Shown: positions 9,167 through 18,624 of the stretch, piece after piece
Numbering within the stretch: the first letter of the stretch is position 1
How the letters are laid out: each line of letters starts with the position of its first letter
Origin: Candidatus Odoribacter faecigallinarum
Lineage (GTDB): Bacteria > Bacteroidota > Bacteroidia > Bacteroidales > Marinifilaceae
Assembly (NCBI GenBank): GCA_019114285.1
Contig: DXFT01000046.1
Coordinates: 1-32,523, forward strand
Length of the DNA: 32,523 bases
Direction of reading: 5' to 3'
The notes under the pieces: generated by a model
What the model saw: the letters and a program-made list of their open reading frames with translations, nothing else
Told to the model about the DNA's origin: nothing
The model's database searches: none
Translations under genes and position numbers: made by a program

Positions 9167-9185
9167 TTGCCTTTACATCATTTTT

Positions 9186-9349
9186 ATCGTTAATCGTTCA
9201 TCTTTAACCGTTTTCACGGTGTATTCCCGTTCTGTTCCCGTATCATCCCCGGTTCACTTCTGGTGATACTTTGTTCTTCCTTTGGTTGGCATGGGCGGAG
9301 GAAGGGGGAATTTGAGGGTGTGTTACCTGGATAATGTTTGATTTGGTCC
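9186..9349 (+). repeat. Dispersed intergenic repeat, copy A
   Basis: Aligns with 18401-18568 (reverse strand) and 30920-31080; shared CTGTTCCCGTATCA, TTGGCATGGGCGGAGGAA, GTGTGTTACC, TTTGATTTGGTC blocks; 11-bp phasing. Confidence 0.85.
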
Positions 9350-9372
9350 TGCCTTTTCCGAAGTGATGGCAG

Positions 9373-9407
9373 GCACAAAAAGGGGCATGTCGATTTTGGC
9401 ATGCCCT
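9373..9407 (-). terminator. Terminator for TonB-dependent receptor gene
   Basis: Minus strand GGGCATG...CATGCCC stem followed by TTTTT. Confidence 0.65.
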
Positions 9408-9431
9408 CCTTCTTTCATGTGGTTTCGCAAA

Positions 9432-11656: not shown

Positions 11657-11974
11657 TTATGCGAAACATGACGGGGGAGCGCGTAAAAACCCCAAGGAGA
11701 GGACAGGGGAATGTGTTTCAGAATCAGGCACGACACCAATGTCTGTCCTTTCAATTTCTTCAAAACCTGAATCTTCTTCTGCTTCTTTGCTTTGGGTAGT
11801 TTGGCTGATTACAATAACCGTTTCCGCCTTTGCCGGGCATTCGTAATGGACGCCTTGCGAAGGGATATTGATTTCCATTGCACCCCTTGCTCCTTTGAAA
11901 TAAAGGAAAACCACCAAAAAAGCAGGGAATAACAGGTAAATCATCAAGTGAGCCGATATACCTATTAAAAACAT
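11657..11974 (-). CDS. Small membrane-anchored hypothetical protein
   Basis: 105 aa; N-terminal TM helix MFLIGISAHLMIYLLFPAFLVVFLYFKG; promoter-like TAATTTTG immediately upstream on the minus strand; same strand as TBDR. Confidence 0.6.
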   Translation of the reverse strand: MFLIGISAHLMIYLLFPAFLVVFLYFKGARGAMEINIPSQGVHYECPAKAETVIVISQTTQSKEAEEDSGFEEIERTDIGVVPDSETHSPVLSLGFLRAPPSCFA

Positions 11975-12101
11975 GGGGGCAAAATTACAAATATCTTCAT
12001 GAAAACAAACACCCCGGACAGAAAAAAGCGTACCGGTTCTTTTATTTGCGATGCCCGAAACTTCTTGTTTAACGGGATGTAGCTTATGGGTTGCTTATGG
12101 G

Positions 12102-12213
12102 TTTCTTCGTCTTTCCGGGTACCTTACCGGTACCTTCCGGGTACCCTGGGGGTTCAAATATACTACCAAGGTACCAACAAGGTTCCCCCAAGGTACCCGG
12201 AAAGACGAAGAAA
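12102..12213. repeat. 24-bp perfect inverted repeat enclosing an 11-bp-phased GGTACC array
   Basis: TTTCTTCGTCTTTCCGGGTACCTT (12102-12125) vs its exact reverse complement (12190-12213); GGTACC at 12118, 12129, 12140, 12170, 12192. Confidence 0.9.
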
Positions 12214-12242
12214 CATCGAAGAAAGGCAGGGGAAAATAGAAA

Positions 12243-12893
12243 TTACTGCACTTTAATTCTTCTTTCCACCTTTTCCCAATCTACTAATTTCCAAAAATTC
12301 CCGATATACTTGGCTCGGGCGTTTTGCGTGTCCAGATAATAGGCATGTTCCCATACATCCAGCGTAAGGAGGGGATGTTTGCCTTCCGTCAAAGGATTGC
12401 CGGCATTCCCCAGTGCCAGAATCTCCACGTTGTCTCCGTTCTGTACCAACCATACCCATCCGGAACCGAACAAAGTAGCTCCTGCCTGGGTGAATTTTTC
12501 TTTGAAATCCTCCACGCTGCCGAAGCTCTTTTCCAACAATTGGCGAGCCTTTCCCTCCGGTTGGCTTTCCCCGTTGCCTTGCAGGGCTTCAAAATAGAAG
12601 TAATGGTTGAACGTTTGGGCTGCATTGTTGAACAATCCGCCATTGCTTCGGACAACAATTTCATGTAGCGGCAGGTTTTCAAACTCTGTCCCTGTTTTCA
12701 ACTTGTTCAGGTTTTCAATATAGGTGGCAAGGTGTTTCCCGTAATGGAATCCAATGGTCTCTTTGCTGATATAAGGTTCCAGCGCATCCACAGCGTAAGG
12801 CAGGGATGCCAATACGAATTGGTTGTCTTTATTTCTTGCGTTTACTGTCTCACAGCATAGCAAGCCGCAGTTGCATGTTTCGTTTTTCATCAT
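12243..12893 (-). CDS. sodB: Fe/Mn superoxide dismutase with Cys-rich N-terminal extension
   Basis: LPYAVDALEPYISKETIGFHYGKHLATYIENLNKL, GSGWVWLVQN, LLTLDVWEHAYYLDTQNARAKYIGNFW. ORF-track start (12944) falls inside the promoter; ATG at 12893 preferred. Confidence 0.95.
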   Translation of the reverse strand: MMKNETCNCGLLCCETVNARNKDNQFVLASLPYAVDALEPYISKETIGFHYGKHLATYIENLNKLKTGTEFENLPLHEIVVRSNGGLFNNAAQTFNHYFYFEALQGNGESQPEGKARQLLEKSFGSVEDFKEKFTQAGATLFGSGWVWLVQNGDNVEILALGNAGNPLTEGKHPLLTLDVWEHAYYLDTQNARAKYIGNFWKLVDWEKVERRIKVQ

Positions 12894-12913
12894 GGTTTTA
12901 AATTTTACTTTTA

Positions 12914-12944
12914 CAAATATATTGATTTTATTTGAAATACGCAA
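12914..12944 (-). promoter_or_regulatory. Bacteroidetes-type promoter of sod
   Basis: Minus strand TTG (12944-12942), 20-bp spacer, TATATTTG (12921-12914), ~20 nt before ATG 12893. Confidence 0.65.
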
Positions 12945-18382: not shown

Positions 18383-18400
18383 TGTTCATAGTGAAGACAA

Positions 18401-18568
18401 GACCAAATCAAATGTTATCCCGGTAACACACCCCCAAATTCCCCGTTCCTCCGCCCATGCCAATGAGAGGAAGAAGGGGGATAAATCGGAGTTGAAACGG
18501 CTTTGATACGGGAACAGACCGTGTACAGACCGGGAAAACGATTAAAGATGAGCGATTAACGATTAATG
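18401..18568 (-). repeat. Dispersed intergenic repeat, copy B
   Basis: Reverse complement matches copies A and C, including TAATCGTTAATCG, CGGTCTGTTCCCGTATCAA, ATTGGCATGGGCGGAGGAA, GGGTGTGTTACC, TTTGATTTGGTC. Confidence 0.85.
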
Positions 18569-18624
18569 ATAGAAATTTATAATTTCTGGATTTCTGCCTC
18601 TGTAAATCGGTGTTCCTCACTGTG

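Follow-up and report, generated by a model that had tools for sequence, protein, structure and literature searches.

A palindromic array of 11-bp units beside sod in Candidatus Odoribacter faecigallinarum: one copy of a dispersed, possibly MITE-like intergenic element

Introduction

Beside the superoxide dismutase gene (sod) of Candidatus Odoribacter faecigallinarum lies a perfect inverted repeat built from short units that recur every 11 bp. Is this structure a 3′ signal of sod, a mobile element or an array of protein-binding sites, and why is its period 11 bp? The window analysed here is a stretch of 32,523 nt on contig DXFT01000046.1 of the MAG of this organism (GCA_019114285.1, hereafter G000). 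A first-pass annotation of the window had boxed the structure at 12102–12213 and had offered these same three guesses as to its nature.

Results

A symmetrical array of twelve 11-bp units

The locus comprises the following features, the repeat being assigned to a family hereafter called family A.

11657–11974, minus strand: small ORF (family unknown); in the sibling species G003 its homologue and the sod stop codon share an overlap of 10 nt
12079–12100, plus strand: outer units GTAGCTTATGG and GTTGCTTATGG, which prolong the 11-bp register outwards
12091–12224, plus strand: family A element, this copy; twelve 11-bp units, the left half TT-led and the right half AA-led, with the central unit AATATACTACC
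12101–12125, plus strand: left arm of the perfect 25-bp inverted repeat
12118–12149, plus strand: left inner array, with GGTACC at 12118, 12129 and 12140 in 11-bp phase
12166–12202, plus strand: right inner array, with GGTACC at 12170, GGTTCC at 12181 and GGTACC at 12192 in 11-bp phase
12190–12214, plus strand: right arm of the perfect 25-bp inverted repeat
12243–12944, minus strand: sod, Fe/Mn superoxide dismutase gene (Pfam Sod_Fe_N and Sod_Fe_C)

The arms first described at 12102–12125 and 12190–12213 are indeed exact reverse complements, the perfect repeat being 25 bp long rather than 24, and the five GGTACC sites (12118, 12129, 12140, 12170 and 12192) and two GGTTC sites (12151 and 12181) lie where they had been placed. 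Location and phase were thus right, but the box was too small: the 11-bp register reaches out to about 12079 on one side and 12224 on the other, and the perfect arms are nested in a 49-bp palindrome (84%; 12101–12149 / 12166–12214). These arms are the sole exact inverted repeats of at least 18 bp within 300 bp in the window, and five of its six GGTACC sites sit in the array. The phasing is beyond chance: the window contains five clusters of 11-bp periodicity, whereas 100 dinucleotide shuffles of it average 0.02.

A dispersed family in the same genome

Further copies, which the first-pass annotation had proposed to look for, do exist: there are about ten in G000. All are intergenic and have unrelated neighbours (those of the window copy are sod, the small ORF, a TonB-dependent receptor and rubrerythrin), and they are found between tandem, divergent and convergent gene pairs. 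Family A is therefore multi-copy, short, non-coding and dispersed at unrelated loci. Alignment of the copies defines a body of about 134 bp, equal to twelve in-register 11-bp units, which are ordered as outer TTGCTTNNNGG, inner (N)GGTACCTT and central AACATACTACC units followed by their mirror image. The whole element is palindromic, and outer CTTGTTT/AAACAAG ends are seen in some copies only.

Five KpnI-type sites in 80 bp could evoke a role in GGTACC restriction-modification, or else a freak of chance or of assembly. The other families of G000 described below are, however, devoid of GGTACC, several G003 copies carry GGCTCC or GGTGCACC in its place, chance is ruled out by the dinucleotide shuffles, and an assembly artefact fits badly with some ten distinct copies in distinct flanks. 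This set of explanations is barely credible.

The copies also hint at how the family may evolve. Copy C35 contains one additional unit of exactly 11 bp and forms a near-perfect hairpin, its right arm holding left-arm units. In the window copy, the left and the right perfect 25-bp arm depart together from the family consensus. Together with the arm swap in C35, this departure is what foldback template switching would be expected to produce: one arm would have been copied onto the other, giving rise to the perfect repeat of the window copy. More generally, family A would evolve through gain, loss and replacement of 11-bp units.

Family A in related genomes

In the sibling species G003, a profile search detects about 11 diverged family A loci, most of them spanning the full model, while BLAST detects just two weak copies; a match to the GTACCTT pattern agrees with the profile match at C2:101848. 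The same profile gave no match in the six other congeners searched (G001, G002 and G004–G007, O. splanchnicus included). Several G003 copies are made of other units (GGCTCC/GGAGCC, GGTGCACC), yet length and 11-bp register are mostly kept; copy C9 requires a 12-column gap in the alignment.

The copy between argR and carA occupies an orthologous position in G000 and G003, with recognisable flanks, which implies that some family A copies are old; the sequences give little evidence of recent movement. With the element, the argR-carA gap measures 333 bp in G000, compared with 139–146 bp in O. splanchnicus, G004 and G001. In G003 two small ORFs beside the family A copy in this gap (L302:899-1456) resemble, by eye, a Phd/YefM-type antitoxin and its toxin partner.

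Arrays of 11-bp units are found in both species in the argR-carA gap and in the gap before rplS. Other orthologous gaps contain an array in one of the two species and lack it in the other, and a comparison of 13 orthologous gaps revealed none with an array in both. The gap upstream of rplS houses a family A copy in G000 (L307) and an unrelated 11-bp array (AATAGGTTTAT) in G003 (L308).

The sod locus itself differs between the two species. G003 has no element there, and the ATG of its next gene overlaps the sod stop by 10 nt (ATGTTTCTAA), while in G000 the two genes are 268 bp apart with the element inside, these 268 bp containing more than the element. Relatives thus offer empty sites both here and in the shorter argR-carA gaps, although the difference at sod could alternatively reflect a deletion in G003.

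The element as an RNA structure

Since sod is on the minus strand and its stop codon is at 12243–12245, the element begins 29 nt past the stop. Folding of both strands, a check that the first-pass annotation had called for, gives an extreme predicted fold of −73 to −76 kcal/mol on either strand (z = −8.9). Moreover, arrays are biased towards gene 3′ ends: of 19 gaps between tandem genes, 16 have the array nearer to the upstream stop than to the downstream start (P = 0.004). All this could point to a 3′ RNA structure for sod, whether terminator, attenuator or stabilising hairpin. The bias is also that expected if insertions into promoters are lost, and several observations speak against such a structure: divergent gene pairs, argR and carA among them, also have family A copies between them; the G003 homologue of sod is devoid of the element; and Rfam searches, at gathering and at relaxed thresholds, returned chance-level matches only, far below the family cut-offs. 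The guess of a terminator finds no support, and an intrinsic terminator was rejected: the scan makes no call, and there is no U-tract.

Base-pair covariation tells the same story. The covariation score was reached by 63/500 and 58/500 shuffles, and the percentage of paired positions was no better, within the species and across the two. A conserved hairpin as a demonstrated constraint was likewise rejected, as neither paired cells nor double changes exceed shuffles. A 3′ structure serving sod is consequently improbable. Transcripts crossing the element would nevertheless carry a very stable hairpin; the phenotypic effect of family A is probably mild.

The element as a mobile repeat

Of the three initial guesses, that of a MITE-like element fits best: the family is palindromic and species-restricted, occurs between genes at dispersed loci, and is missing where the G003 sod gene overlaps its neighbour. 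I therefore favour, with somewhat better than even confidence, the reading that the palindrome at sod belongs to a dispersed family of MITE-like intergenic elements, non-coding and palindromic, with a degenerate 11-bp minisatellite body. Family A would behave as a non-autonomous mobile element, spreading by a trans-acting or recombinational route. Target-site duplications were looked for: there is a possible ATAC at C85 but none that is reproducible, the junctions not being clean and the outer ends being degenerate. A search with the end motifs for an autonomous element in this 88% complete MAG returned family A and family D loci and a few weak others, and phage and plasmid collections gave no match. 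Family A is accordingly likened to a MITE and not classed as one, there being no reproducible target duplication and no helper transposase found.

Another mobile candidate would be a repeat of REP/BIME type that a RAYT (Y1) transposase mobilises. Like family A, REP/BIME sequences are multi-copy extragenic palindromes (PMC2817692, PMC3733652), but their unit is 20–40 bp long instead of about 134 bp with a tandem 11-bp structure, and no match to Y1_Tnp, the tyrosine transposase, was found in G000 or in most congeners. This affiliation is hardly tenable.

An 11-bp period shared by unrelated families

The MITE-like reading does not by itself explain why the exact 11-bp period recurs in families of unrelated sequence. 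The noncoding DNA of G000 was scanned for periodicity in 552 kb of contigs that took in the window and had been selected without regard to family A. Lags 11 and 22 stand out: lag 11 has 24 array clusters, whereas lags 8, 9, 10, 12 and 13 have none. In G003, a 225-kb sample, two contigs of which had been chosen for their family A matches, contains 17 lag-11 clusters and none at neighbouring lags. No lag-11 excess was detected in O. splanchnicus (400 kb), G004 or E. coli (150 kb), and G001 and G002 have one or two 11-bp arrays. The arrays of G000 fall into families A, B, C, D, E and F plus singletons; four copies other than that of family A lie in the window.

9183–9411, plus strand: family B copy, 11-bp-phased dispersed repeat
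18394–18566, minus strand: family B copy, 11-bp-phased dispersed repeat
30919–31081, plus strand: family B copy, 11-bp-phased dispersed repeat
31139–31248, plus strand: family C copy, palindromic, with 11-bp units in both arms

Family B (TCTGTTCCCGT/ATCAACTCCGG), unrelated in sequence to family A, has at least 13 copies in 699 kb of G000, the copy in L211 being one unit, exactly 11 bp, shorter. The first-pass annotation had heard in the sod palindrome an echo of this dispersed repeat; the common 11-bp phase is real, but the dispersed repeat is a separate family. In family D (TTATCAACTCC), some outer units resemble those of family A, with which it has the TTGCTTNNNGG type in common.

Two further observations concern these repeats. 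The family C palindrome (GAGCACCGAAG units) has at least two further copies in G000, 80–86% identical. Runs of a 7-bp period head family B copies in the window (9186–9212 and 18537–18570); degenerate 7-bp tandem arrays, for instance at L245:4089-4184, L245:6948-7183 and L236:349-463, account for 2.9% of the noncoding bases across 20 sampled Bacteroidota genomes and for 0.8% in O. splanchnicus.

Distribution of the phased unit

GTACCTT units phased at 11 bp were then sought in 85,462 genomes, and the titles of the matches were counted by hand. At least 113 stretches were found, compared with about 8 expected by chance under equal base use. Among the matches listed, about four-fifths are Bacteroidota by title (Flavobacterium, Sphingobacterium, Prolixibacteraceae and several Bacteroidales), and 14 of 113 have both orientations close together, most not being palindromic. 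An even sample of 149 Bacteroidota genomes contains the exact 11-bp pattern in the window's genome only, which indicates that the exact unit is rare and the phenomenon scattered; changing its phase to 10 or 12 bp gives no match in these 149 genomes. One contig of a 'Neobacillus' MAG (L054) carries an array nearly identical to those of Sphingobacterium and, on account of this near-identity, is probably mis-binned.

Discussion

What holds the period at 11 bp? Left to itself, tandem slippage would be expected to yield a spread of unit lengths and not a single one, whereas the degenerate arrays of G000 and G003 keep to exactly 11 bp. Three origins are possible: all families may descend from a single array, one helical turn may be selected for, or DNA may be copied by a machinery that moves in 11-nt steps.

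Selection for a helical turn corresponds to the third initial guess, a helically phased protein-binding or DNA-bending array in which each 11-bp unit, about one turn, presents the same site on the same face of the DNA. The ligand would be a protein of nucleoid type or one that binds DNA cooperatively, and the inverted arms would yield the palindrome as a by-product. This guess draws on a conserved unit core and phase and on pairing without covariation. Of the 24 GTAC columns in the six full units, 22 are invariant, compared with 30 of 71 other columns (P = 1.5e-5), a conservation inflated by copies related through recent descent. The family A consensus has AA or TT at columns 2, 13, 24 ... 134, that is at 13 consecutive 11-bp steps running through the symmetry centre, AA/TT being the commonest dinucleotide class in noncoding DNA anyway. 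Base-pairing shows no covariation beyond shuffles, and unrelated families adopt 11 bp, with none at 8–10, 12 or 13. Unit-wise conservation without covariation argues against a selected RNA stem and leaves either unit-by-unit copying of DNA or a DNA site once per turn. On the other side, there is no candidate protein, congeners do without the array, and unit sequences differ between families and between G000 and G003. A binding array is thus doubtful, if worth entertaining.

A broader conjecture can be offered, though I consider it rather unlikely. Scattered Bacteroidota would carry intergenic arrays constrained in period (11 bp, about one helical turn) and not in sequence; their families would be many and unrelated, with units being replaced while length and register persist. 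Such arrays would be the product or the target of a putative machinery whose copying or binding of DNA advances one turn at a time, and 12091–12224 would be a twelve-turn symmetrical unit of this kind. Whether the period is made (by a copying step), selected (for one-turn binding) or inherited (from an ancestral array), the answer would explain part of the intergenic DNA of Bacteroidota and would caution against taking such palindromes for terminators or regulators. Since a close relative, O. splanchnicus, is free of 11-bp arrays, a comparison of sibling species is a way to look for the cause.

Comparison with known systems

The parC site of plasmid R1, a plasmid centromere adjoining parM and parR, consists of 11-bp direct repeats bound by ParR. 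Family A may be compared with parC for its one-turn spacing of direct repeats, but it has many chromosomal copies, and the likeness is a resemblance only. The enterobacterial RU/ERIC-type repeats are not known to have an 11-bp internal period. These repeats are, like family A, about 130 bp long, non-coding, dispersed and MITE-like (PMC2759123). The TAACTGA heptamer arrays of Beggiatoaceae, Cyanobacteria and a few Bacteroidetes recall the 11-bp arrays as intergenic direct repeats of fixed short period in scattered genomes, but differ from family A by a 7-bp period, an exact unit and the lack of a palindrome (PMC4679880).

The closest known case is that of BrickBuilt and PgRS/MITE464 of Porphyromonas gingivalis (Klein et al. 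2015, PMC4596501). Their units are 23 or 41 nt long, in contrast to the degenerate 11-bp unit of family A, and no sequence similarity is claimed; the 23-nt tandem unit and the IS5-like terminal repeats identified in BrickBuilt/PgRS are both absent from family A (PMC4596501). The two are alike in several respects: both belong to Bacteroidales, are intergenic and species-restricted, number about 10–20 copies, and combine internal tandem repeats and predicted long stem-loops with inconsistent target duplications (PMC4596501).
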